From positions 5,828,001-5,892,000 of the forward strand of contig CP099850.1 in the NCBI GenBank assembly GCA_030062745.1: DNA of 64,000 nt. Direction: 5' to 3'. The stretch is from Capitulum mitella. Taxonomy: Eukaryota > Arthropoda > Thecostraca > Pollicipedomorpha > Pollicipedidae. Positions 6,190 through 64,000 of the stretch are shown in pieces. How positions within the stretch are numbered: the stretch's first letter is position 1; every line of letters begins with the position of its first letter. The position numbers and the translations under genes were made by a program. The notes under the pieces are model-generated. The model was given only the letters and a program-made list of their open reading frames with translations. It made no database searches and was not told where the DNA came from.

Positions 6190-6977
6190 CTTTGAAGCTA
6201 TTGTTCGCCATTCCGTATTTAACAAGTACAAATCGTATTGCATTTTTTCGTATAATATTCGCCTCGGCAGCGCCAGGGACAAGAAAAAGGGGACCTGTCA
6301 TGGTCGCATGTTCATCCAGTAAATTTGCGACCTTTTGACCTGAAATGACCGTATATGACATGATGGCTACATGAAATTACCTTGGGTTTATTTCATAGAG
6401 TCTTAGAACGTTCTATTTATTTAAATGGGCTATATTTCTGAAAGTCCTGCCTATGGGCGTCATAATATAGAGTACGCGTGGACGCACATCATAGCTCTTT
6501 AATCCGACCTTACATCAACCTGAAGTTCGAATCACTAGTAGAAAGCAATGAGGTAAGCTACATGTATTCCGGATTTTTTTTTTAATTGGCGTGAGAAATA
6601 TTGACACAAAACAAAATTTCGAATTTGGACCTTGACCTAACCTTGCGAAGTAGTCTAAGGTCAACAGAAAATTTGGGGTATATTTGGTTAGTTATATAGC
6701 TACTCATGTTAAGTTTTAGTTTCTCTGTCTTAAAAATTGTACTTTGGGCAACCACTTTCCTTTGGCCTTCCACATTGCCTAAAACAGCAGGAGGTGTCTC
6801 TTAAAAACGCGGCCTGGCTCCGCCCCTGAGCAGAATAAAGTTATGAAAATTTGGCGTAATACGATGGAAGAAGGGATAGGAAAAGTGGCCATGTTTCGTG
6901 ACGTCTCTTTAAAAGTAATGGAAATGGCGAGCAAAAAACCGAATGAAGCTTCTGACCTCCCGTGTACGGGAACATGG
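6190..6977 (+). mobile_element. TTAA element family 1, copy 3 (5'-truncated)
   Basis: Homologous to about 820-1764, but more diverged. Shared landmarks are the GCGCCAGGGACA block near 6270, the CATAGCTC block near 6490, GGACCTTGACCTAACC near 6630, GCCTGGCTCCGCCCCTGAG near 6820, and a right end that runs into TTAA (6978-6981). The right terminus is decayed (GGGAACATGG instead of GGGAATAGGG) and the left part of the element is missing. Copies 1 and 3 share TTAACGCG across the end, so they may share target-site context as well as body sequence. Confidence 0.65.
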
Positions 6978-9900: not shown

Positions 9901-10269
9901 CAACATTGCAGAATCAAAGTTTGTCTGATGTGACTAAAAAGGCAATGAAGCGTTGCCTCAAAAAGGCTGCTATGTGGAAGATACTTTGAATACACTATTC
10001 CGTCACGATGTCTAGACGAACGTACTGACGGCAGACGGCGAATGCGGTAAGGTCGTCATAAATGCACTCGGTGATTGTTGGGTGTTTTCGGAGGTTAGGT
10101 CGTCAAAAGGTTTTTCGCTCATATAATGGCGGTGAATTTCCCTTGACAGCTCAGGGCACAGTCCAAGCAACCTCTCAAATAAGTTCTGCACCTCGTAACT
10201 GTCGGCGCATCAACGAGTCACACGTCTCTCATAACTGCCGACGCCTCAACCAAAACTGCCGACATTGAC
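6982..10269. other. intergenic, nothing firmly recognised
   Basis: AT-rich to about 7500, then a small CpG-rich block at 7600-7720, then mixed-composition sequence. Open frames such as 8146-8511 (+) and 8776-9084 (+) encode nothing I recognise and lack flanking splice or promoter evidence. Confidence 0.4.
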
Positions 10270-10690
10270 TCGGCCGATTCTGGTCCGCCGGCTCTGGTCC
10301 GCCAGGTCTAGGCTGCCGGGTTTGGTCTGCTGAATCTGGTTCACCGGGCATGGTTCGCCAGATCTGGGCTGCCGGGTCTGGTATACCAGGTCTGGGTTGC
10401 CGGGTCTGGTCCGCCGGGTCTGGGCTGCCGGGTCTGGTCCGCCGGGTCTGGGCTGCCGGATCTCGTTCGCCAGGTCTGGGCTGCCGGGTCTGGTTCGCCA
10501 GGTCTGGGTTGCCGGGTCAGGTATGCCAGGTCTGGGCTGCTGGGTCTGGTCCGCCAGGTCTGGGTTACCGGGCTTGGTCTGCTGGGTCTGGTCCGCCGTG
10601 TGTGGTTCGCCAGGTCTGGGCTGCCGGGTCTGGCCCACCAGGTCTGGTCGCCAGGTCTGGCCCACCAGACTGGTCCGCCAGCTCAGGTTC
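10270..10690. repeat. GC-rich minisatellite (about 15/30-bp unit)
   Basis: Repeated units of the form GCCGGGTCTGGTCCGCCAGG alternate with a GGTCTGGGCT variant, giving about 15-bp units grouped in about 30-bp pairs. The period is a multiple of three, so several frames stay open on both strands. The resulting Gly/Ser/Pro-rich frames are repeat readings, not genes. Confidence 0.85.
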
Positions 10691-10960
10691 GCCGGTGCCC
10701 GCCCGCCGTCGGCCGAAAGCCGAGGCGGGCATCGTCGCCGACGCGGCGGGGCTCAGTCGACGGGGCGCCGCCGGGCAACAGGCAGCGGCCGCGGCGCTCC
10801 GGACCCGGCGACCTCGGACGGCTCCCGGCCGCGCAGCCAGTGACGGTCTCGTGTCGAACGGCCAGCCTCGTCCCCGAGACAGTCGCCACTCGGCGCCTCA
10901 GGTAGGTCAGTGGACGCCGGCGGCACAACAGGGAGCGCCAACGGCAGATCGGCAGGCCCG
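10690..10960. other. GC-rich island beside minisatellites
   Basis: CpG-dense block between two minisatellites. Open on both strands, with no recognisable domain. Confidence 0.3.
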
Positions 10961-18509: not shown

Positions 18510-19743
18510 CCTAGCACCGCCTGGTGATTGTCTTGTGAATAATATCTGAACTCTTAGAATCAGCACAATCAAGCTTGCTGTACCTGTTCACCATATTCTG
18601 TTCATCATATTCTGACATCAAAGTCATTCCCATGCTAGGTCAAGTCATGGAGATATGACGTAAGTGGATTCTTGCATGCATATTTTCGCCTCTTCGGGCG
18701 GTGGTGCGAGCATCCTTCTTTTCTTTGATAATATTCGCGAGTATAATGCACGGATTATTTGGATCTGCGTTGAACATGGCCAGTAAAAGATATACAACCG
18801 TGTCATCTCAGCTTCAGAGGTCATGCTAAGTCACATGATGACATTTGGACATGATTGGCATTGTGGGTGACAGAAGTGATTGCCGCTGACCTTCCTCCTG
18901 GTTCAAGCTAGACAAGCAAATCTATATCAAGCCTTTTTGCAAGGTTTACCAAATGCATCGCGAGGTGATTTCAGATCACGTCATAGGTAGATGTCAAAAC
19001 GAAACGAAATGCAACATTGTCTATGGAAGATCGCCCAGTAGCAGCAGAGAGCAATAATTGTCCCTAGTCAGAAAAAGGTAATGGCGATCTGTCCTCACCT
19101 CGCTTGACCTTGGCCTGATAGAGAGAAGACAGCAGATTTGATCATCAGTAGATGTCATTCCAATGTTGCACTTGTCGCAAAAAAGAATTCCAACGAGTAA
19201 TTATTGCTCTGGCTGGAAGAGCAATGCAACCTTGTCCTACCTCACCTAGACTGGCCCTAACAGGATGAAAAGCAGGTAATGTTAAACTGACCATCAAAAG
19301 GTTTCACTTCAGTCCCTTTTGTGAGGTGAATCAAAACGGCTGTAAGTGTCGATCTTTGGCAGGTAATGCAAGACCAATATTTCACCTGACGCAGGTTGAC
19401 TTTTACCGACATTTTTTCATTTTTGGCATGTTTTTGATGCAGAAGATCGTGGACCTTCGTTTGATACGCAGTGAAAGCCTCTAAGACCAGTTTTGCTGAT
19501 GATATGATGCATGAACCGGAGTCAGTTTTTTCGGCGCCTTGCTATGCGTTTTACGTGTCCTGTGACGTCATCAGTCGCGTGGCTAGGGCTAACATTATAT
19601 TTTCGGAATCGCAAGACCCAGGACTATCGATTGGTGGTAGACCGGTTCAGATCCGACGGTTAGATCCCGAGATAACACGGGCGTACCCTTTGGTCAGTCC
19701 CCCAGGTGGTCACGGGTACGAAAACACGCTACGCGGTGCCGGG
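18510..19743 (+). mobile_element. TTAA element family 2, copy A (piggyBac-like, non-autonomous)
   Basis: Flanked by perfect TTAA on both sides (18506-18509 and 19744-19747). The left end is CCTAGCACCGCCTGG; the right end, reverse-complemented, is CCCGGCACCGCGTAGCGTG. It is inverted relative to copy B at 20709-21883. Landmark blocks shared with B include GTCATGGAGATATGACGT (about 18645), TTCGGGCGGTGG (about 18692) and the terminal region ACCCGTGACCACCTGG. There is no transposase frame. AGGTCA-type motifs are scattered through it (about 18634, 18819, 18886, 19098). Confidence 0.78.
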
Positions 19744-20708: not shown

Positions 20709-21883
20709 ACCCGGCACCACCTGGCGTGTTTTTGCACCCGCGACCGCCTGGGTGGGTGTCAAAAAGGGCACCCGCTGCTATCTCAGGATCTAATCGTCGA
20801 ATACGAACCGGTCTACCACCAGTCGACAGCCCTGAGTCTTGTGATTCAGAAATACTATGTCAGCCCTGGTCACGTGGCTGATGACGTCACAGGTCACGTA
20901 AAACTCATAACACGACACTGGAAAAACTGGCATCGGTTTGTACCTCATATCATCGGTAATAGTGGTCTTAAAGCCTTCAGTTGGGTATCGAACGAAAGAT
21001 CACGATCTTCTGCGTCCAAAGCATGCAAAATGCTGAAAATTCCAGGTCAAGGCCAACCTAGGTCAGGCGAAACTTTAGTCTTAGTTTACATGTCAAAGAA
21101 CGATACCTACTCGCAGCCGTTTTGATCTACGTGACGAAAGCAATGAAAGTGAAACCTTTTTATAATCAGTTTTGCATTATCTGCATTTCATCCAGCCATC
21201 GTCAGTCTAGGTCAGGTCAGATAAAGTTGCATTACTCTTCCTAACAAAACAAATCTGGCAAGCTGGCCAGCCAAGCAAACAAGCTAACCTAGCAGACGTT
21301 ACTCGCTGCGATTCTTAATCGCGTCAAGTACATAACTGAAATGACATCTCGTGACAATTAAATATGCTTTGTATGCTCTTTAGCGAGTCAGGGTCAGACC
21401 AGGTCAGGACAAACAGTCATTTTTCTTTTTCTGTTCTGACTTGGAACACAAATTGTTGGCTACTGCTACTGAACGATCTCCCACAGACAATGCATTCCAT
21501 TTCGTTCTGACGTCTGCCTATGACGTGACCTGGCCTGACATGACGTCAGATTGCACAGGTGAACTTTGCTGAGAAGTGCATATAGATTTGCTTGTCTGAC
21601 TTGAACGATGGGGAAAGTCAGCGGCATTAGCTTCAGTTGTTTGTTCGCGCCACCGCCCGAACAAGCAAAAACAAGCATGCAAGAGTTCACTCATGACGTC
21701 ATATCTCCATGACCTGACCTAGTTGATGAATGTGAACATAATGAAAATAGTTTTAATGTCAAAATATGTAGAAATGATTGTTGAACAAGTAATGGAAATT
21801 TGATTGGTTTGACTCTAACGGTTCAGAAGTTATAGAAGAAAAACCGAGGGGTGCCCTATTTGACACCCCCAGGCGGTGCCGGG
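20709..21883 (-). mobile_element. TTAA element family 2, copy B
   Basis: Left end CCCGGCACCACCTGGCGTG preceded by TTCA; right end, reverse-complemented, CCCGGCACCGCCTGGGGGTG followed by TTAG. Both TTAA sites are decayed by one base. Subterminal sequences can fold (GGGTG...CACCC near 20750-20775 and GGGGTG...CACCCC near 21849-21870). It is homologous to copy A in inverted orientation. It has several half-sites, including AGGTCAAGGCCA (about 21045), AGGTCAGGTCA (about 21207) and TGACCTGACCT (about 21710). Confidence 0.75.
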
Positions 21884-21887
21884 TTAG

Positions 21888-24159: not shown

Positions 24160-25904
24160 ATCGCACATGGGCAACGAGCCTCCGATAGACCATGACATTA
24201 CGATAAAACCGGTTTACATGGTGTCTGGAGCTGACTGTGAGTCTTGGCTTATCAAAATTTGCGTGATTTGCATTGCACTTTGTGCAGTGGGCGTGCTGAG
24301 CTAAAATTGTCTGGCGACAAATGTTTTCATCTCGCGCTTAGTAATAAATAGCTTATCATGCTTTAGTCGAGCTTTGCCTGATAATTTGCCTCTGAAAATG
24401 AAAATCTGTAACGATCTTATCCCTCCAAGAAGAATATGCTTGGGATATATCCGAAGAAAAAAAGAAAGAAAAACTCCATGGCACGATACATTGTCTAGTT
24501 GTCATAACGATCAGGCATTTTCTGTTGAACAATATCCTTTTTTGTAATTATGTCCTATGGTATGTTTTCATAACTTTGCACTTAGCTCCATGTTCCTTTG
24601 GGCACTCGGCACCCGAATAAAAGTGCGATGTCAAAGTTGTAAATATTTGGAGACCGGCGACTGAAGTCTTTGCTACAAAACATCGTCATCCCTCTGACTG
24701 ACTCAACCGGGAATCAGAAAAATAAACTACATATCTCGTGCTTTATTCTAAAGATTAAGAGACATCGTGGAACCAAACGCAAAGTTCATATAAACAGGTC
24801 ATAGTGCCACTCTCTGTCCAAATTTTGCAACAGCGCAAGCCGGCGAGCTCACGAAATATACGCTGGACACTGATGCGTTCTTTCAAAATTTAGAAGCTGG
24901 GTACCAATCAATGACGAGGCAGTCCTTACATGTATCTTATGGCAATATTGTGGTATTACACATGCCAGTACATTGAAATTCAGTTGCAAAGAAACTGCAG
25001 TTGCAATGCACTAGCTAACCGGTGGTGAGAAATTATCAGACCTGTCCCAAATGTAAGTGTGGCACTCCAGCAACGAAAAGTGCAAAGCAGACGCATCAAT
25101 GTCCCAGAAATTCTGCATGGACCCAATCTGCGCCGTTTTTGGAAATACGCGCGATATGCGCGTGTTTCCAAAAACGGCGATTAAAAACAAAGACTTTAAG
25201 TCGAATTTCCAATTAACAACAAAGACTTTAAGTCATTCGCAGAGTTCGGATGCAGCTTCATTTTGGTACCATATTGTTCTATGACTGACGCCAATGTATA
25301 GCCTAGTTCCAAACATTAGAAACGAGAATGATGAATAGTTTCCACTCTTTAACAGCTGTTTTTGAATTGCATTTATGAAGTGTTGACGGCATATCGATTG
25401 GACAAATCTGCTGAACAAGTCATCAAAGCCCGGAGAACGCTCATTATTATTCGCGCGTGCATCTGTCAGATGGAAAAGTGAATTGGTCTTATTAGGCAGA
25501 ACTTATCTGCGAGGCATCAGTTATGCCCTGCTAACATTATCAGGGCTGACATCCAATCCTAGGCTTGACGCAGGGCACTGTTCCGACGTAACGTCATCAG
25601 CCCTGGCCAGGTTTCCCGATTCTGACCTGTGCCAAGAACCCTGAACTGATATCACCAGCTCCGGAGCTGATATCCCCGGCTCTGACCCGCGATGGCCAGT
25701 CCTTAATTGATGTCCCAACAATGACTTAATGGCCTCTGCGGGCCTGGTGACTTAGTGGTCTGGAAACGTTATGCATGGTTTTCCTTTTATGTCGCCGATA
25801 ATGACAACTATTGGCTGGTTCTGAGATCAGAGTCTGGAGTGTTCGCCTCTTCAGCAGCGTGAGCTGAGGTAGGATGAGCCTTATCACACTCAGCACCGGC
25901 ACCG
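24160..25904. other. intergenic, nothing recognised
   Basis: AT-rich. Contains one short palindrome (CGTTTTTGGAAATACGCGCG and its partner, about 25133-25175). No gene recognised. Confidence 0.4.
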
Positions 25905-26410
25905 CGCGGTGATCAGTGTCGCGGTCAGTACCGGTACCGGGCGGCAGTCATTGTCGCGGTCAGTACCGGTACTGGGTGGTGGTCATTGTTGCGGCCAGTA
26001 TCGGTACCGGGCGGTGGTCAGTGTCAGGGCCAGTACCGGTACCGGGCGGTGGTCAGTGTCGGGACCAGTGCCGGTACCGGGCGGTGGTCAGTGTCGGGAC
26101 CAGTACCAGTATCGGGAGGTGGTCGGTGTCGCGGCCAGTACCAGTACCGGGCGGTGGTCAGTGTCGGGACCAGTACCGGTACCGAGCGGTGGTCAGTGTC
26201 GGGACCAGTACCGGTACCGGGCGGTGGTCAGTGTCGGGACCAGTACCGGTACCGAGCGGTGGTCAGTGTCGGGACCAGTACCGGTACCGGGCGACAGTCA
26301 GTGTCGCGGCCAGTATCGGTACCGGGCGGCGGTCAGTGTCGCGGCCAGTATCGGTAGCGCGCGGCGGTCAGTGCCGCAGCCGGTACCGGTACCGGGCGGT
26401 GGTCGGTGCC
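25905..26410. repeat. 35-bp minisatellite, about 14 units
   Basis: The unit is built from ACCGGTACCGGGCGGTGGTC plus AGTGTCGGGACCAGT, 35 bp in total, with about 80-95% identity between units. Because 35 is not a multiple of three, the frame rotates with each unit. All three + frames nevertheless remain open, giving long Val/Pro/Gly/Arg-rich frames that should not be called genes. Confidence 0.9.
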
Positions 26411-27010
26411 CGTGACCATCAGTCCCGCCGCCGGGGCCCCGTCGCCGTCGTCTGGAACGAGCCGTCGTCACAATGAGCCCGGCCGGAGAAGGCGATCGAT
26501 GGGCCGAGCGGCCATTTACCACCGCCCGGCAAAAACGCGCCAGGCCCAGACGAAATCGGCGCGCGAAACAGGCGGCGGCCAAGCGGCGCACTCCGACAGT
26601 GACACGGGCGGCGGCGTCGGTATCGGCACCGACACTGACGTAGACACCGGCACTGTTCGCCGGTCGTCGACACCGACACCGACCAACGCGGTACCGGCGC
26701 CGACACTGGCCCAGGGGCCGAGCGGAGGATACGGACACAGACGCCCTGCGACGGGCACAGACACTGACACCGAGCGGCGGTCGGACGCCCGCACCGAGCG
26801 ACGGGCACTGACGCAGACTCACACGCCGACACCGACAGTCGCCGGCGGTCACGGTCACTGGCGCCGACACGGGCAACGGGAGTTGGACGCCGTGTCGTCT
26901 TTCGGTTCCAGCTCCGACTCCGGCCCGGCCCGGTCCCGGCTATGGCTCTGGCCCCGGCACGGGCTCTGGCTTCAGCGCTGGCTTCAGCATTCGGAAGCGC
27001 TAGCAGGGTA
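26411..27010. other. GC-rich, low-complexity block
   Basis: Degenerate short repeats (CACCGACACTGAC-like) and CpG-dense sequence, open on both strands. No domain recognised in the 201- and 214-codon frames. Confidence 0.4.
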
Positions 27011-31098: not shown

Positions 31099-31987
31099 AC
31101 ACATGGACCACTAACGAAGCCTCAGGCTATCGATTTCCGTTTGAATGGATGAAATAGGATCGTCCACCCTCGAAGCAGGCATAATGGGCAAAAACATCCT
31201 TTCTGTAACTGGAAGATAGCGAAATACCTCCGTCAGTGTTGGATTAACCCGCGCACGACCGTCGGTCCGTTACGATCATGCGCGACTGGGGGGCTGTTTC
31301 AGCCCCCCTCTAATTCGCGACCGGTTGGTCACGCAGTAAAAATAAGCACACGGTTGGAAAGCTTGTGACGAATAGAGCTCGACACAGGTCTCTTTTTTAG
31401 TTTTAAATAATATGTAAGCAATTTATGTCCTATATATGTTTTCCCATAGCCGACTGCATGAGACCGAGAAACGGCCTGAATCTCAAGGGCTGTGACTAAT
31501 AACGCATAAATAAACGCACCAGCGCACAAGTAAAGGTCCGCAAATGCCGATACATATCTTATTTCTCACATCTGTTAAATATATACGCGGAAACGTCGAG
31601 TTAAAAACACGGCAATTCTCGCGCCGGCTGTCGGCGTGCATCGCTTTCGTATGCAGTAACAAACTGACGGGAACCAATTTTAGCATTCCTTTATTTTTGC
31701 GAAAAACGCCTATCCATGTAAATTTTATTGATCTTACTGGTTCTTGTGATGGTTTTCCATGCTTAAATTTTGAAAAAAAATCATTAGTTGCCAATGTACA
31801 AAGTTGGTGGAGCTTTATTCGCTAGACCCTGTTTATTTCCAAAATAGGCAATTTTTTCAAACTTTTTGAGGTTCCTGGTGTAACTTCTGCCTGTGCAAGC
31901 TAGTTCTGCCATTTCCTACCCATTCTGAGTAATTCATCGTCGATTTTGACGGTGGTACATTTTGGCTGACTACAGTTATTCGTGGCC

Positions 31988-32000
31988 TGACCTCAGGTCA
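31988..32000. promoter_or_regulatory. everted half-site pair TGACCT-C-AGGTCA
   Basis: Two perfect half-sites in everted orientation spaced by one base, inside the family 3 element. Motif only. Confidence 0.25.
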
Positions 32001-32129
32001 ATGGCTAGAAGTCTACTTTGCCCAATGTAGGTAACTAGATGTCTGCTTCACTCCACACTAAAAGTATTATAAAATGCTCCGTCAATTTCCAAAAAAATGA
32101 CCACATGTCTTAAAAATGAACTTAACCTT

Positions 32130-32142
32130 AGGTCAATGACCC
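32130..32142. promoter_or_regulatory. candidate ecdysone response element (AGGTCAATGACCC)
   Basis: Inverted repeat of AGGTCA half-sites with one-base spacing. All 13 positions fit the Drosophila EcR/USP consensus RGKTCANTGAMCY. With equal base frequencies the expectation is about 0.06 matches per 64 kb, though half-site-rich repeats raise this. It lies inside the family 3 TTAA element, 2.06 kb before the first coding exon of an ETH-receptor-like gene. Receptor expression in insects is known to follow ecdysteroid. Function here is inference. Confidence 0.4.
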
Positions 32143-32281
32143 GGAAAATTCCGAAAAATTTTAGATAGGAGATTTGTTGCATCTATCAGGATCACTAATC
32201 CCTGCAAGTATTATTTAGATATCTTGTTTTCCGAAGAAGTTACAGGGCGCTCAACTTTTTTGGACATAGGTCTGTTTGACT

Positions 32282-32317
32282 TGACCTAGGTCAGGCACCT
32301 GACCTGACCTGAGGTCA
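32282..32317. promoter_or_regulatory. dense AGGTCA/TGACCT cluster
   Basis: TGACCT-AGGTCA (everted, no spacer) at 32282-32293 is followed by overlapping TGACCTGACCT at 32300-32310. AGGTCA follows at 32312-32317, so the last TGACCT and AGGTCA form an everted pair with one-base spacing. Five half-sites lie in 36 bp within the family 3 element. Confidence 0.3.
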
Positions 32318-32456
32318 AAACTTTGACACAACATGTAAAAATAATGAAGGAAAAGGTAAACAAAGTTTCGTGGCTCTGTGTTGTTTTGTTCTCTAGCAGT
32401 CCCAGAAAAACCTCAGGGGGCTGTCAACAGCCCCCCCCCAGTCGGAGGCGGGTTAA

Positions 32457-34190: not shown

Positions 34191-34243
34191 GTGCTCATTT
34201 CCGGGTCGGCCCATCTTCGGCTGCTCGACCAGCCGCTGCAGCG
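34191..34243 (+). other. ETHR: 5' untranslated part of receptor coding exon
   Basis: Pyrimidine-rich acceptor ending in CAG at 34190 makes 34191 the likely exon start. An in-frame ATG at 34166 lies in the intron, and the first ATG within the exon is at 34244. At least one non-coding 5' exon is therefore expected upstream. Confidence 0.6.
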
Positions 34244-35275
34244 ATGCAGCCAGCGGCGGCCGCCCTGCTGCTGCTGGCCGCGGCGCAGGCGGCCACGGCC
34301 GACGACATCTTCAGCCTGCTGCCGTCCGACTGTGCCGGAAACGTCTCGACGCGCGCGGAGGGCGCCGGAAATGTCTCGACGCGCGCGGAGGGCGCCGGGA
34401 ACGTCTCGGCGGGCTCGGACGGCGCCGCCGATTTCTGCGGGTGCCTGACGGAGAGCGGGCTCCCGCTGGAGCGCGGCCTGCGGCGGCAGATGCGGCGCAG
34501 CCAGCGCGCCATGATCGTCGCCCTCAACTGCACCAAGCTGCACGCCGACGCCACCGGGCAGCAGCTCAGCTTTCCGATGTATTACTCGCTGCCGTACCGG
34601 GCGGTGGGCGCCGTGTTCCAGGGGGCCGTGTTCGTGGTCGGCTTCCTCGGCAACATCATGGTGGTGCTGGTGGTGCGCCGCTCGCGCAGCATGCACACGC
34701 CGACCAACTGCTACCTCGTCAGCTTGGCCGTAGCCGACATCATCGTGCTGGTGGCCGCCGTGCCCAACGAGATCTCCACCTACTTCCTGGTGGCACAGGC
34801 CTGGATCTGGGGCAACGCCGGCTGCGCCATCCTCATCTTCCTGCAGAACATGGGCATCAACGCGTCGGCGCTGAGCGTGACCGCCTTCACGGTGGAGCGC
34901 TACATCGCCATCTGCCTGCCACTGAAGGCACGCACCATCTGCACCGTGCAGCGCGCCAAGCGCATCATCCTGGCCGTCTGGGCGTTCGCCTTCTGCTACT
35001 GCATCCCCTGGGTGTTCCTCACCAAGGTGGTGCCGGTGCACTACATCGGCGTCAGCGACGTGCAGGACTGCACGTTCAAGCTGTCGCGGCAGGAGTACTT
35101 GGGCTACTTCTTCGCCGACATCGTGCTGTTCTACGTGGTGCCGCTGGCGATCTCCAGCGTGCTTTACACCATGATCGCCGTGGTGGTATTCCGGCCGCCT
35201 CAGATCCTGAAGCAGGCCTGCGACCCTGGGTCCGCCTCACTGGAGGTCCGGACGACCAACAGCGCCCGAGCACAG
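34244..35275 (+). CDS. ETHR: ETH receptor-like GPCR, coding exon 1 (residues 1-344: signal peptide, TM1-TM5)
   Basis: Class A peptide GPCR, expected at the plasma membrane and, by family, to signal through Gq/calcium on binding a neuropeptide. The start (G at -3) gives a signal peptide, residues 1-19. A three-unit AGNVSTRAEG-type repeat with sequons (31-60) and N95CT follow. TM1 has GN137, TM2 LAVAD165 and VPNEI (173-177). Cys194 (start of TM3) and Cys276 (second outer loop) form the usual disulfide pair. The DRY equivalent is E218-R219-Y220; TM4 has W246 and P255, TM5 P300 and Y308. GINASALS, VERYIAIC and CTVQRAKRII are shared by TRH and ETH receptors; VPNEI and CTVQRAKRII favour the arthropod ETH receptor. 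The exon ends at CAG|GTCAG, phase 0, so ARAQ joins VIKML of exon 2. An EFLamide/TRH-type receptor is the main alternative. GPCR call near certain; subtype about 0.7. Confidence 0.93.
34334..34423 (+). repeat. 30-bp coding repeat adding N-glycosylation sequons
   Basis: Three consecutive 30-bp units start at 34334, 34364 and 34394, the third diverging at its end. Each encodes a 10-residue AGNVSTRAEG-like unit with one NVS sequon in the extracellular N-terminus. Confidence 0.9.
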
Positions 35276-35440
35276 GTCAGGGCTCAGAGGAGCGCCAGAG
35301 CACAGATCAGAGTTTATAGCAGCGTCCGAACACAGGTCAGGGCTCATAGCAGCGTCCGAGCACAGGTCAGAGCTCATAGCAGCGGCAGAGCACGGGTCAG
35401 AGCTTACGACAACGCCCAAGATCAGAGCTTACAACAACAT
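35261..35440 (+). repeat. 30-bp minisatellite across the exon 1 splice donor
   Basis: Six units begin at 35261, 35291, 35321, 35351, 35381 and 35411, with the form AGCGYCCGAGCACAGGTCAG plus about 10 bp. The donor CAG|GTCAG used for exon 1 (cut after 35275) lies in unit 1. Equivalent CAG|GTCAG donors exist in unit 3 (after 35335) and unit 4 (after 35365). Unit 2 (CAGATCAG) and unit 5 (CGGGTCAG) have lost the donor or its consensus. The reading frame stays open through all units to a TAG at 35453-35455. Confidence 0.9.
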
Positions 35441-42034: not shown

Positions 42035-43205
42035 CCCTATTCCCGGCAGGGGCTGAATCCGCCCCCCCGGTTTTTTGCTTGCCAATTCCAGGGTTTTTAA
42101 CGCAGCCTCACTGAACTTGGTGACTTTTCCTAACTGTTCTTTCTACGTGCCGTGACAAGATTTCAAAATTCCATTTTGCTCAGGGGCGGAACCAGGCAAC
42201 GTTTTTGGGAGGCACCTCTGGCCATTTTTGGCCATGTTGAGGGTAAAAGGAAAATGTCTGCCAAAAACAGCCGTTTTGAGATAGAACAAAAAAGTTTATA
42301 TGAATGTATAGCTAAATAGTTCAGCAATGTGCAGATATAATTTTGTTCATCTGAGATCACTGTTTTATTGCAATAATTTCGGCGCTGTTTTTTTCAAATG
42401 CCAAACCCGGAATATACATGGTACAGAAAGTTGTCCTGTACTTATATATCAAGTTTCAGCTTGATATCAGGTCGGGTCACGGAGCTATGACCTAAAATGT
42501 CAGTGCGCGTACCCTATATCACAATAGCCGTAAAATGGAATTTTTGAAATAGAGTGAATTCAAATGATTGAAAGCGTTTACAGATAATACTAAATGCAAC
42601 GGAGATCATTCCAAGTGACCCCAAGGTCACTGGAGGTCATTTTAGGTCAAAGGTCACAAGTTGATCTGAGGAGCAGATGACAATGACAGCTCCCCTTTTT
42701 CATGTCGCTGGCACCGCCTATGCTAACATTATACAACCATTGTTATGCGATTTGTACTTATTTAGCATGACGTGACTAGCAGAAGCCAAAAAAGTGTTTT
42801 TCCCTTTTTGCCCATTCAGTTGTTGGAAAACCAATCCTCCTATTTTTGAAACCCTGTGAACGCCCATGAATTTTCTCAAAATTTCAGATGTGTGTGCCCA
42901 TGTTAAAAGTGCTATCTATAATCTCTCGATTCATGCCAGTTTCATCAAAATCGGTCCATAAACAGCGGAGTTATAAGAAGTCCAAAAATACCCCTGATTT
43001 CGACGTTTTTGTCCCCCTGTATCCACACGTTTCAAAATTTTGAAAATTTCTTTTTATAAAAATGTAGTTCACGTCATGTCAAATCGATTGCCGTTTGTTG
43101 CGATGAAATCGGATGCGTAGTTCTCGAGACCCCAGGGGGGCCGAATCCGCCCCCCCCCCCCTCCGCCGGCAATCGACCATACCGTCTAGCCCCCCGGGAA
43201 TAGGG
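42035..43205 (-). mobile_element. TTAA element family 1, copy 2 (most complete)
   Basis: Both ends are intact. The left end is CCCTATTCCCGG preceded by TTGA (42031-42034, one base from TTAA). The right end is CCGGGAATAGGG followed by TTAA (43206-43209). The 12-bp terminal inverted repeats are perfect. Subterminal G/C tracts can fold (GGGGC..GCCCC at about 42049-42065; GGGGGGC..GCCCCCC near 43135-43155). It is 1171 bp long with no transposase frame. It is inverted relative to copies 1 and 3 and interrupts a minisatellite. Confidence 0.82.
42624..42656 (+). promoter_or_regulatory. four tandem AGGTCA half-sites (spacing 4, 4, 1)
   Basis: AGGTCA at 42624-42629, 42634-42639, 42644-42649 and 42651-42656. 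The last pair is a perfect DR1 (AGGTCAAAGGTCA), the type bound by RXR/USP and HNF4 dimers. The first three are spaced as DR4. It lies in intron 1 of the receptor, inside family 1 copy 2. Copies 1 and 3 keep only diverged remnants. Confidence 0.35.
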
Positions 43206-45735: not shown

Positions 45736-45893
45736 GTCATCAAGATGCTGGTGATGGTGGTTTCGGTCTTCGCCCTCCTCTGGCTCCCCTACAGGAGCAT
45801 GCTCGTCTACAACTCCTTCGCACCCACGCCTGACCAGAAGTACATGGACCTGTGGTTCCTCATGTTTGCGAAGACATGCGTCTACATCAACAG
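45736..45893 (+). CDS. ETHR: ETH receptor-like GPCR, coding exon 2 (residues 345-397: TM6, ECL3, most of TM7)
   Basis: 158-nt exon between acceptor GACAG (45731-45735) and donor CAG|GTATGT. It begins in phase 0 with VIKML, the conserved entry into TM6. TM6 carries F356 and the W360-x-P362 toggle motif in LLWLPYR; the Tyr-Arg after it (Y363, R364) is conserved with the TRH receptor. ECL3 is PTPDQKYMD, and TM7 begins FLMFAKTCVYIN. The exon ends with two bases of Ser397, phase 2. Human TRH receptor has a ligand-contacting Arg in TM7 where Lys390 stands here, a conservative change. No second copy of this exon, as would encode an A/B isoform, was found in the window. Introns on either side are 10,460 and 4,817 bp. 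Confidence 0.95.
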
Positions 45894-50710: not shown

Positions 50711-50793
50711 CGCCATCAACCCGATCCTGTACAACGCCATGTCGGCCAAGTTCCGGCGGGCCTTCCGGCAGGCGTTCCGACTCATCGGCTGCC
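50711..50793 (+). CDS. ETHR: ETH receptor-like GPCR, coding exon 3 (residues 397-425: NPILY and helix 8)
   Basis: 83-nt exon. The acceptor CGTTCCGTTCCAG ends at 50710; the first base completes Ser397 and the exon continues AINPILYNAMSAKFRRAFRQ. It contains N400-P401-I402-L403-Y404 (the NPxxY switch), the amphipathic helix 8 (F411, R412, F415) and Cys424, a typical palmitoylation position. The donor is a perfect GTGAGT at 50794, leaving one base of Arg425 (phase 1). If the donor were ignored, translation would stop two codons later (CGT GAG TAG), giving a very short tail. Splicing to 54547 is preferred because phase, acceptor and tail motif all fit. Confidence 0.93.
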
Positions 50794-51950
50794 GTGAGTA
50801 GCTGCCCGGACGGCCGGAACTCGGCCTGCCTCTGTTTTGGCAGCCTGAAGCGGTATCGGGCTGTGGTGGAGTTGGAGGGCGTTCATCCCGGGCCAGAGTG
50901 GCAGCTGAGAAGTAGTCGGATGATCCCGGTTGAGTTATGCGAGTGGACGAGTGGTTTCTTTTTGTGACCGTTTACGGGTCTTAACCATTATCGGTTAAGT
51001 CTTATCGATCTTAACCATAATAAGGGCTAGGGGTGCTCTTAACCATTATCGGACAGGACATATTATAACTCCGCGCCAGTCGAACGCGTTGTAATTATTG
51101 CTCTTCGCGTTACTACCATTTCCGATGTCGGTTTCAGCTTCTGTCAGCGTGACACTTGGCGTTCCGTAATTTCTGAGACAGTAAGCACAATAATGACTGT
51201 GCGTTGCTGGAATTTCGCAGGTTACCATTTCGGCTCAAGCGCCGGTTTCTGAAAGAGGTTTCGTCAAAATCGGACAACAGATAACAATACTTTCGACAGA
51301 CCTTCAGCGTAAACATAACTCGTCATGGCTCACCACCACGGGATGGAATGCCACCGGTTCAGCGTCCGCACACTGCCGTGAAATGGAGCGGACTGACCGC
51401 ACGTCAGGTCATTTCTGTCGGTACTGCCGGCCGGGGAGGTTGGCTGGCTATAATATCCGCAGAGCACCACGGAACAGAAGCAGCTTGCGACGGAGCCAGA
51501 CAGCAGAAATGCGCTAGAGAGACAGCAAGAATTAAGGAAATGCGGTTAATGAGATAGGGTCACAGACAATCAGGATGACGAGGGAGGAAATGCATGCTAT
51601 GTGGTCGGGACCGGAAGAGAACAAGTTCATCTGAATCATTCCACACTTTGCCTGAGGCTAACGATGTAGGCATAAGCCCGCACCATGCGCGGAGCGATAT
51701 TGGGAAACGCTGGGGCGGTGCAATGGATTTTTGATGCAGGAAAGATGGGATGTAGTTCAAGCGATGTGAATTTGGATGATGTGGAGAATCGCAGGACGTG
51801 GAAAACGTCTCATACGGTGGCTTAGACATGATTTTTGTCCGTTAATTTTACTAATTTAACGCCGTATAAGGCCCTTTGGAGGTGGAACAGTTCCAGCGAC
51901 CTCATTTAATCATGAAAATACCATTGCCATTTTCAAAGCGATTGTCTTGT
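50794..51950. other. intron 3, 5' part
   Basis: No gene recognised. A small repeat, TTAACCATTATCGG or variants, occurs three times at about 50983, 51013 and 51037. Confidence 0.45.
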
Positions 51951-57219: not shown

Positions 57220-58205
57220 CTAACCTGTCCATGGACCACCTCCCTGCTGTGTACGAGCCCTCGTGCGGTCCGGTATGCCACATACCGGGCCGTCCAGTGT
57301 CGCGGAGACGATGCCGGACCAGACCCTCCGGAGGCTCCCGATCAGGGTGTTCTCGGACTTTGCCGGCGTCATCTTGTCCAGCTTCTCCTGAACGATTCCC
57401 AGTAGATTTTCAGTCGGGAATAAGTCTGGGCTATTGCCCGTTTTTTGTTTGGAACCCAGGGTAGCGGACCCGACACCATTTTTGGGTCTTTCTGGCGCGA
57501 TGTGCTGCAGTGCCGTGCTGTTGACAAACGGCCCGGGACGTGTCTGGCAGCAGTTCTGTCTTGCACGTAGGACCATTTTTATGTCGCGGTATTTTTTATG
57601 GCGTTTTCCACGTAGCATTCAGCTGTAATGCTTTGCCCTCGGGGATAAGACGCATCTCAGACAGACTGCGATAGCTCATCGTCCCCACACTTGCGTCTTC
57701 AGAAGGTGTTTGGCCGTCCCGGTGACGGGGACTGAGACCTTTTGTGGGCCCAGACGCGATCATTCTGTGGGTTGGGTGGGTGGTGGAGCTGAAAAGGACC
57801 GTTTGTGAAAAGCACGCGCCGCCAGTCTTCAATGGTCCGTCCAAGTTCTTCCTGCCTTGAGCGAACTCTATCCATGTTTCCCTCTGCGTTTGTGTCAGTT
57901 TGGACTACAGGCGTGGTCTGAAGAGCTTCAAGCGCGGAATTCCTTACACACACAGGGTACTTTGTACTACCTTGTGTGATGCGGGATATCCCCCGGCTGT
58001 TACTTTCCGAGCCAACTTTCCTGTCGAGAGGCCTCTTTTTAGCGCTGATTTGGCGATCACGATCCTGGCCTCTCTGCTGCCCGAGCGACCTTCTGCGACC
58101 CGACCGTCTCTTTTCCCGTGGGTCTCCGTCCTTGACACGGGACAACCAGCGCTGCATGATGCAGGCACTGACTCCCAACTGCTCAGCAACCTGATCCTGG
58201 GCCAT
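57220..58205 (-). mobile_element. decayed Tc1/mariner-type transposase
   Basis: Three out-of-frame fragments read in order on the minus strand. The N-terminal HTH (QVAEQLGVSACIMQRWLSR with a following basic GRRR region) and the start of the catalytic domain (DWRRVLFTNG) lie at 58205-57699. A middle piece (MSYRSLSE..LIPEGK) lies at about 57690-57630. The C-terminus (NSPDLFPTENLLGIVQEKLDKM) lies at about 57430-57365. The first catalytic Asp (VLFTDE type) is Asn at 57801-57803, and the second (QDNAPAH type) is unrecognisable (RQNCC). The D and E of PDL...TEN remain. The element is inactive. Terminal inverted repeats were not identified. Confidence 0.82.
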
Positions 58206-61455: not shown

Positions 61456-61650
61456 TCCCTTTGGCTAAGACTAGAAAATATATTTGCGAAAAAGAACCAA
61501 GAAGGTTATTTAGACTTGACATGAGAAGAACAATAAATCACTTTAACTAAGGACAATGAAAAATATGCACGTTTTATGTCCACTGAAACTTCTGGTTCCC
61601 AAAAGGACATACCATTCGTGCTGCAGACAGGGATGCGAAGGGGCGAAGGT

Positions 61651-61830
61651 ATGAGACGTCGACCACCTCTGAACTGAGGTCTGAGACGTCGACCACCTCT
61701 GAACTGAGGTCTGAGACGTCGACCACCTCTGAACTGAGGTCTGAGACGTCGACCACCTCTGAACTGAGGTCGGAGACGTCGACCACCTCTGAACTGAGGT
61801 CTGAGACGTCGACCACCTCTGAACTGAGGT
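61651..61830. repeat. six near-identical 30-bp tandem units
   Basis: Units of exactly 30 bp (GAGACGTCGACCACCTCTGA followed by ACTGAGGTCT) start at 61651, 61681, 61711, 61741, 61771 and 61801, with only two single-base differences among them. Each unit holds GACGTC and GTCGAC palindromes. All three minus-strand frames read through, giving 10-residue peptide repeats (for example DLSSEVVDVS); only one + frame is open. There are no spacers, so this is not CRISPR. High identity implies recent expansion. Confidence 0.95.
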
Positions 61831-64000
61831 CTGTTCCGAAATCCGCCGACGAGAGGGCCGATGCAAACCGGGCTAATGGAACCAAAAACGGAGCAGCCGT
61901 CAGAGGTGATTGATTGCCCGCGAAAACGTAGCTCGAGGTTACTCTCGCAGCGAAGGAGCTGACAAGCCATTCGCAAACTGAGCACCTCCGCTCAGCGTGC
62001 CAAAAACTAGGGCTGGGAATGCGGGGAGTGTGGGAGGTTGTAGAGCTCTCACTTTTCAGAAATTTCGAAGTTATGCCTGTGGCAATGATTGTAAATAGAT
62101 GGTCTTAAGTCCTATTCAGACCTCAACAATCAATTTCGGAAATCACCAGCCATGTCAGAAACAGTAATGTTTCTGGTGATAGTTTTTTGCGGGGAAATTA
62201 TAAAAGATGGGTAATGTAAGTTGGTGCAGTCCGCATCAGTCCATAAATTGTGTCAACAGCAAAGTACGATTTTATTCCACTTCGGCCTCCTAGAGTCGCC
62301 AGAACCATTACCTCGCAAAAGCCAAGCCGTCTCCTACGCTGACGTCTTGTTAGCAGTCTCGTGGTGTGCTGTAACAATGAATTGTAATTAACGCCGAACG
62401 CTGCGCCGGAGTTACCAGGGCGAATGAAAAGCATTGGAAGTGCTGCTGCTGCTATTTCGAAAAACACTAGAAAACGGTCTCGCTCTGGCGGGCTGGTGAA
62501 GTGCGGGCGTGCGACGACGGACGCTACCGCGCCAGGTTCGTGTTCGCAACTCAGGCATAGCACGTAACTGATAGTTCAAGTCAGTACAGTAACTCTTGTC
62601 ATTGTCTCCCCTAGATCAGTCTTGGGCTTGAAATCGAACGTTCGGGAACTTCAGGGGAAGTAATGTAATTCTTAAAAGGGTTGATAGCCGAGGAGGTAAA
62701 CAGAAATGGAATTAGTTCGGAGAGAGCTGAAGGTTCTCACAACGGAAAATCTCGAACGGCGGGAGGGCGATGCTGAGAAAACTAGACAGCTCAGTCGATG
62801 GAAGAGAACAATACTCGCGTAAGTCCCTTCTCATTCTGAGTGTTAATGGCTTCCGGACCCTTTGAATGATGAGACGTCTTCTGTAACTAGGACTGTGGCC
62901 TTGAAGGCCATAAAAGACAAGCTGAGGGTAGAGTCGAAGGGAGGTGTGTTCGTGTGCCACTGCCTGAGAACCAAAAACGAGTTCTGGCAAAGTTCCAGGA
63001 TCTTGACGGCTGCGGCAATGTCTATGAGCAATGTTTAAGCGAAATTGACACAGAGGGACCAGGTACTGTGGTTCATGAAATCTCACAGACAGACGTGCTG
63101 GTCATGTAAAGGTTTTGGGCGAAATGACACAGCCAAACCAGGTCATTAACTGTCACACACAAAATGGTATACATAATGCCGGCCAGAATCTCCCGTGACA
63201 AAACGTAACTATCAACGTATAAACGCCACTATATATAAGAGATAAGTCCACTAGTAGAGTGACCCCGCCCAGCAATGTTGACGTGCGAACCTGGGGAGAG
63301 TGGGAGCGAAACAGCACACGAGTTTTCTCGGAGGCCTCTGAGTGTGGCAGAGCCGGGCAGCCTCCGGCTGTCGTGGTCAGCACCGCCTGAGAGGCTGCGT
63401 ATTGGTCCACTAGCTCCCTCGCTGGCAGGCGATCGTCGGCTGGCTCCCAATCGACCGTTCTGTGGCGGAAGGCTGTGGTCTCGTGTACCGCTGTCTGCAG
63501 ACAGGCTGCGATGACAGCCGTCAGCACCGTCCGCCAGTCGACGGCAGTTTTTTTTCTTTTGGCAGGAACGGCTGAACGGCAGGCGTAACCCATCAAAACA
63601 CCTGATGAAATATGATGTAGCCATTTTTCCCCTGGAGAGTATCGCCTGGTGTGCGCCAGAACATAAGGTTTAAGATGCATGAATGGCACATTTACTTCAC
63701 TGATATTTCGCATCCAAACAACGTGTCTCTCGGAGTTGCGAGGTTTGCATCTTAGTTGTTAAAGATGAATGCTCGTAAACCTTGAAAGTCGTTAAATCTC
63801 TTTTAATTTCATTTTTACGCCATGGAATTGTATCATATCGCATCCTTCCTAACGTGAAGCACACCATGTGCGGCCAAGATTAGCACTGATCAATGCAAAC
63901 TGCACTATTTTGTACCGAACCGTGCTTGCCATTTTGTCATTTTCCATTCCGCGTACATGCCTGTAACGTCGTCCGCAAACTAAAACTCCAGAGCGGTGGG
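61831..64000. other. intergenic, nothing recognised
   Basis: Mixed composition with a GC-richer block at 63270-63560. The minus-strand frame 63153-63713 (186 codons) and its overlapping neighbours have no recognisable domain. Confidence 0.4.

Follow-up and report, generated by a model that had tools for sequence, protein, structure and literature searches.

A sequence that fits the ecdysone response element (EcRE) consensus at every position lies inside a transposable element of Capitulum mitella, upstream of a gene for a receptor that resembles the ETH receptor (ETHR). Did the transposon deliver a hormone switch to this gene, as a sequence-only reading of the DNA had proposed, or does the motif belong to the transposon and merely adjoin the receptor? 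We analyzed the whole surrounding stretch of 64 kb (hereafter, the window) and searched the genome (477,042,490 bases in 16 contigs), using the reversed sequence as the control.

The 13-mer, its host element and the downstream receptor gene

The 13-mer and the element that contains it comprise the following features.

31244..32456, + strand: non-autonomous piggyBac-like element (MITE), 1213 bp, TTAA at both ends
31988..32000, + strand: everted half-site pair TGACCTCAGGTCA, also the majority sequence of the element family
32130..32142, + strand: IR1 AGGTCAATGACCC, perfect match to the EcR/USP consensus and majority sequence of the element family
32282..32317, + strand: five clustered half-sites, TGACCTAGGTCAGG...TGACCTGACCTGAGGTCA

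The 13-mer AGGTCAATGACCC agreed with RGKTCANTGAMCY at 13 of 13 positions and is therefore a perfect IR1 of the EcR/USP consensus and a candidate site. As had been claimed, the match is perfect, and it was the only one in the window; 100 dinucleotide shuffles of the window gave a mean of 0.03 perfect consensus matches. AGGTCA is the commonest of 180 hexamers of the same composition in the window (79 occurrences versus a median of 25.5). The half-sites of the element cluster at 31983-32317, about 140-470 bp from its right end.

The element begins at 31244 with TTAACCCGC and finishes at 32456 with GCGGGTTAA. It has imperfect terminal inverted repeats of 16 nt (31244-31259/32441-32456, 81% complementary) and subterminal C-rich inverted arms (hairpins) of 22 nt (31288-31309/32415-32436, 77% complementary). 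With TTAA at both ends and a longest stop-free frame of 112 codons, it is the TTAA-flanked, non-autonomous element that had been described around the 13-mer. TTAA was the left end in 31 of 38 aligned copies (window copy counted), and for a copy nested in an older relative (L010), the joined flanks aligned continuously through a single TTAA, at 69% over 1-1210, giving an empty site. The piggyBac transposase profile PF13843 had 118 matches in the genome, the best of which spans the whole 349-position model with no stops, and none in 14 control genomes. The TTAA ends, the empty site, the genomic piggyBac transposases and the high copy number described below indicate that, judged by its sequence, the 1213-bp element is a piggyBac-like MITE, its autonomous partner aside. 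Like MITEs of the piggyBac type, it is TTAA-ended, starts with CCC and has a single TTAA in its empty site; transposase genes are abundant in the genome, yet none is linked to the ends of this element. An Rfam search of the whole window gave no match.

The receptor gene lies downstream on the same strand.

34191..34243, + strand: probable 5' UTR at the front of the first coding exon, following the acceptor-like ttttcgtctcaccgcag (prediction only)
34244..35193, + strand: coding exon of a TRHR/ETHR-like GPCR, with a signal-peptide-like start and TM1-TM5, ATG at 34244, 3' end provisional
45736..45893, + strand: downstream coding exon, TM6 (VIKMLVMVVSVFALLWLPYR...)
50711..50797, + strand: downstream coding exon, TM7 (SAINPILYNAMSAKFRRAF...)

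The gene product is a rhodopsin-family GPCR (Pfam PF00001, E 2.4e-42). When the three exons were joined, the TRH receptor was the best solved relative (E 2.1e-75), and only the two TRHR sequences scored better than 1e-60 in that comparison. The TM6 segment presumably resembles those of insect ETHRs, and it is partly from this likeness that ETHR is a plausible label. The receptor that had been placed near the element thus stands at the TRHR/ETHR-like level, with TRHR closest, as a putative ETHR. The 13-mer lies 2,048 bp from the acceptor-like site and 2,101 bp from the ATG, compared with the 2.06 kb to the first coding exon that had been stated. The splice-acceptor-like site just before 34191 makes an untranslated exon further upstream likely. 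Directly after the TM5-coding part, 30-bp tandem repeats with AGGTCA / cacaggtcag occupy 35244-35417; they are in frame with the receptor exon to a stop at about 35455, and several copies resemble splice donors.

Elsewhere in the window, tandem arrays occur at 10223-10703, 25821-26485 and 61617-61856, with periods of 14, 35 and 30 bp, respectively, and some such arrays yield long but probably meaningless open frames. An open frame at 57702-58205 (- strand) looked like the decayed N-terminus of a Tc1/mariner transposase but had no Pfam match at E 0.01. Apart from the receptor exons, four frames from the window lacked a Pfam match at this threshold.

Copy number and conservation of the 13-mer

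We counted the motif genome-wide. The exact 13-mer occurred 3,666 times (1810 + 1856 on the two strands) versus 17 (10 + 7) in the reversed control, and the full consensus RGKTCANTGAMCY, which is its own reverse complement so that every site is reported on both strands, had 9,096 sites versus 475. The density of the perfect consensus is one per 52 kb. Accordingly, 1.22 consensus sites and 0.49 copies of the exact 13-mer are expected per 64 kb, and the chance expectation of about 0.06 per 64 kb given earlier does not hold; both that figure and the shuffle mean of 0.03 are too low because they ignore repeats. Assuming uniform placement, the chance that a perfect consensus lies within 2.06 kb of any position is 3.9% (about 1 in 25), and for the exact 13-mer it is 1.6%. 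The lesson for method is that a perfect hormone-element match beside a hormone-cascade gene, seemingly at odds of 1 in 30, is to be expected in about 1 in 25 of all 2-kb stretches once the repeats of this genome are counted.

The source of these copies was the element itself. All eight 13-mer loci that were fetched contained the same element, and the 13-mer occupied the homologous position in each. Searching the genome for the element gave 8,359 first-look candidates, 40 of which were scored, yielding 47 matches; the 40 near-full-length matches had 83-87% identity to the window copy (the window copy itself excepted). A flank 19-mer of the element occurred 4,995 times with at most one mismatch, versus 0 in the control. 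Twenty IR1 sites spelled differently from the 13-mer were also fetched: seven matched the window element over more than 1 kb, with the IR1 inside the match in six; four had a shorter match to the element and nine had none. The 13-mer belongs to an element with thousands of copies, and its adjacency to the receptor is therefore most likely a coincidence.

Conservation was analyzed in 29 copies (L010-L038) picked for their similarity to the window element, not for the 13-mer. The column majority at the place of the motif was AGGTCAATGACCC. The presence of the same 13-mer in most copies of the family, with no link to hormone-responsive genes, had been named beforehand as evidence against a hormone switch. 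Our result comes close to this: the 13-mer is the majority sequence, but its exact form was intact in only 11 of the 29 copies. In a second estimate, based on positions alone, the first 17.7 Mb of contig C1 contained 75 exact copies of the flank 19-mer, of which 35 had the 13-mer within 70 bp. It is intact in less than half of the copies sampled regardless of it because the copies have decayed. Mean column identity was 0.936 for the 13-mer versus 0.937 for the entire element. Among all 13-mers of the element, it ranked at the 37th percentile for identity and the 28th for exact keeping; among CpG-free 13-mers, the ranks were the 30th and 22nd percentiles. Thus, within the family, the 29 copies showed no extra conservation of the 13-mer, a result at the level of the family and not of the orthologous insertion.

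The window copy differed from the family majority in 118 of 1214 columns, exceeding 28 of the 29 other copies (4.5-9.9%), and is therefore an aged copy. At this divergence, the probability of retaining 13 given bases is about 0.26. The family majority contains 11 AGGTCA/TGACCT half-sites, which were kept at 0.765 versus 0.692 for all hexamers in the 29 copies, a difference that is not significant (P 0.09); the window copy retains 8 of the 11, versus 54% of all hexamers. These figures lean towards weak constraint on the half-sites, without significance.

Taken together, the 13-mer is very probably inherited transposon sequence that happens to adjoin the receptor. An ancestral piggyBac-like MITE would have borne about eleven AGGTCA/TGACCT half-sites, this IR1 among them; the element would then have spread to thousands of TTAA sites, with one copy, now aged, landing by chance upstream of the receptor gene. 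We infer that the 13-mer has no site-specific role at the receptor. The element may bind nuclear receptors generally, and EcR/USP binding at the 13-mer is possible, making it a candidate site; nothing in the sequence marks out the window copy. Two observations run against the inherited-sequence explanation: half-sites are kept slightly above the level of all hexamers and so may be under weak constraint, and the spacing-specific excess of pairs described below hints that the motifs have some meaning for the elements. The proposal of a transposon-delivered hormone switch was not supported, the 13-mer being the majority sequence of a family of thousands of copies, with ordinary conservation.

Half-site pairs in other repeats and rival explanations

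Inverted pairs (AGGTCA-N0-12-TGACCT) numbered 16,308 genome-wide versus 523 in the control, and direct pairs (AGGTCA-N0-12-AGGTCA) 85,216 versus 2,482. A 5-bp AGGTC satellite accounted for 12 of 100 direct pairs among the matches listed, and it was removed from the spacer counts of direct pairs by admitting only spacers whose first base is not G. Spacer 4 occurred 27,875 times versus 158 in the reversed control, an excess of about 176-fold (an example lies at 42624-42656 of the window), spacer 5 occurred 1,424 times versus 99 (14-fold), and spacer 3 occurred 730 times versus 89 (8-fold). EcR/USP is also able to bind direct repeats with spacer 4. IR1 was rejected as a uniquely favoured inverted spacing: at 78 distinct places among the matches listed, from the start of contig C1, spacings of 11, 1 and 6 were found 26, 17 and 9 times, respectively.

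In the first 100 spacer-4 places listed, CTGG and TTTA spacers together made up 49, and the other 51 showed 38 different spacers. The CTGG and TTTA spacers are adjacent in one repeat family, which is present at 42624 of the window. When 20 short stretches were chosen for diverse spacers, 14 loci fell into six similarity groups and six loci were unlike the others. Several repeat groups have half-site-pair geometry in common; this may stem from common origin, from selection on receptor binding or from a few dominant families. The window itself contains a second half-site-rich repeat family.

748-1147, - strand: copy of the second family, 79% to the copy at 42435-42841
6221-6524, - strand: copy of the second family, 67% to the copy at 42435-42841
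42435-42841, + strand: third copy of the second family

The best copy of this family has AGGTCA at 10-bp steps. Half-site conservation, analyzed with 42435-42841 in eight copies not chosen by motif, was not significant (P 0.12). A third window family, with only two usable copies, gave P 0.01, a value that is uninformative because it depends on a single pair. A further repeat group with half-sites is seen at 18626-19029 and 21328-21722, and the stretch that finishes near 21887 has a terminus (ggggtgccctatttgacacccccaggcggtgccgggtta) similar to that of the piggyBac-like element.

We then weighed what these motifs might do. It is extremely improbable that the inserted IR1 has been co-opted at this locus, recruiting EcR/USP and turning the receptor gene ecdysteroid-responsive. 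The consensus is perfect and is separated from the first coding exon by 2.05 kb, position being all that links it to the gene, and 20E regulates the expression of ETH and ETHR in insects, according to the review PMC10455322. However, the motif is common to its family, its conservation is unremarkable and about 1 position in 25 should have a comparable site nearby; moreover, known EcREs are placed upstream of the ETH gene, not at ETHR, in the passages on ETH of PMC10455322 and PMC9370559. It is doubtful, though by no means far-fetched, that the likeness to nuclear-receptor sites is incidental, the half-sites being instead transposase-binding or structural repeats of the elements, or tandem repeats of the AGGTC type. 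The 5-bp AGGTC satellite and the clustering of half-sites at 31983-32317 of the window element are consistent with such an origin, whereas the half-sites of the window family are internal and on one side only, and the same hexamer occurs in repeats without detectable similarity to the element (nine of the 20 other-spelling IR1 loci).

An effect at the level of the family is also unlikely. Here, binding of EcR/USP or another receptor would have aided the expression or mobility of the element or opened chromatin, seeding thousands of potential hormone-responsive sites. This would fit the roughly eleven half-sites of the family majority, the strong excess of IR1 and spacer-4 direct pairs but not of spacers 3 or 5, and the several unrelated-looking repeat groups that bear such pairs with differing spacers. 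The half-sites, however, have no significant extra conservation in the 29 copies (P 0.09) or in the eight of the second family (P 0.12), and inverted spacings of 11 and 6 are common beside 1 among the 78 pairs, a mixture that would be expected if spacing simply followed a few family consensus sequences. The broader claim that several separate transposon groups carry pairs of specific geometry (spacer-4 direct and IR1) because hormone receptor binding aids transposons is, in our judgment, quite improbable. If true, tens of thousands of potential ecdysteroid-responsive sites would be spread through the genome, the one beside the ETHR-like gene being a single case, and a rewiring of a moulting-hormone network by transposons could be tested. 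Inherited transposon sequence is the explanation we prefer for the 13-mer, and the genome-wide excess of half-site pairs merits more attention than the site at 32130-32142.

Comparison with known systems

The canonical EcRE of PMC3498158, based on dozens of genes of Drosophila, is RGKTCANTGAMCY; canonical EcREs are described there as varying considerably and as hard to find by sequence similarity. The window 13-mer shares the full sequence of this element, and its binding and 20E response are candidate properties. Dispersed motifs of the kind found here warn against naming EcREs by sequence alone in such genomes. In the open-licence literature, judged by titles and the openings of abstracts, we found no report of an ETHR gene with an EcRE carried by a transposon.

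The precedent is the Alu-DR2 motifs of primates, as reported in PMC1785376: 108,582 DR2 motifs, 90% of them in Alu repeats, with RAR binding detected by ChIP for several, and with motif-bearing Alus relatively scarce within 1 kb of gene starts. In both systems, a repeat family has multiplied a nuclear-receptor consensus, and many copies lie near genes by number alone. Unlike Alu, the window family is a TTAA-bounded DNA transposon with an IR1 and half-site clusters. According to the same source, the Alu motif was generated mainly by deamination of CpGs once the repeats had dispersed, whereas the window 13-mer is the majority sequence of its family; binding to Alu-DR2 was seen by ChIP, whereas the window family is known here from sequence. 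Should receptor binding underlie the genome-wide pattern, that pattern would be an arthropod counterpart of the primate Alu-DR2 expansion.
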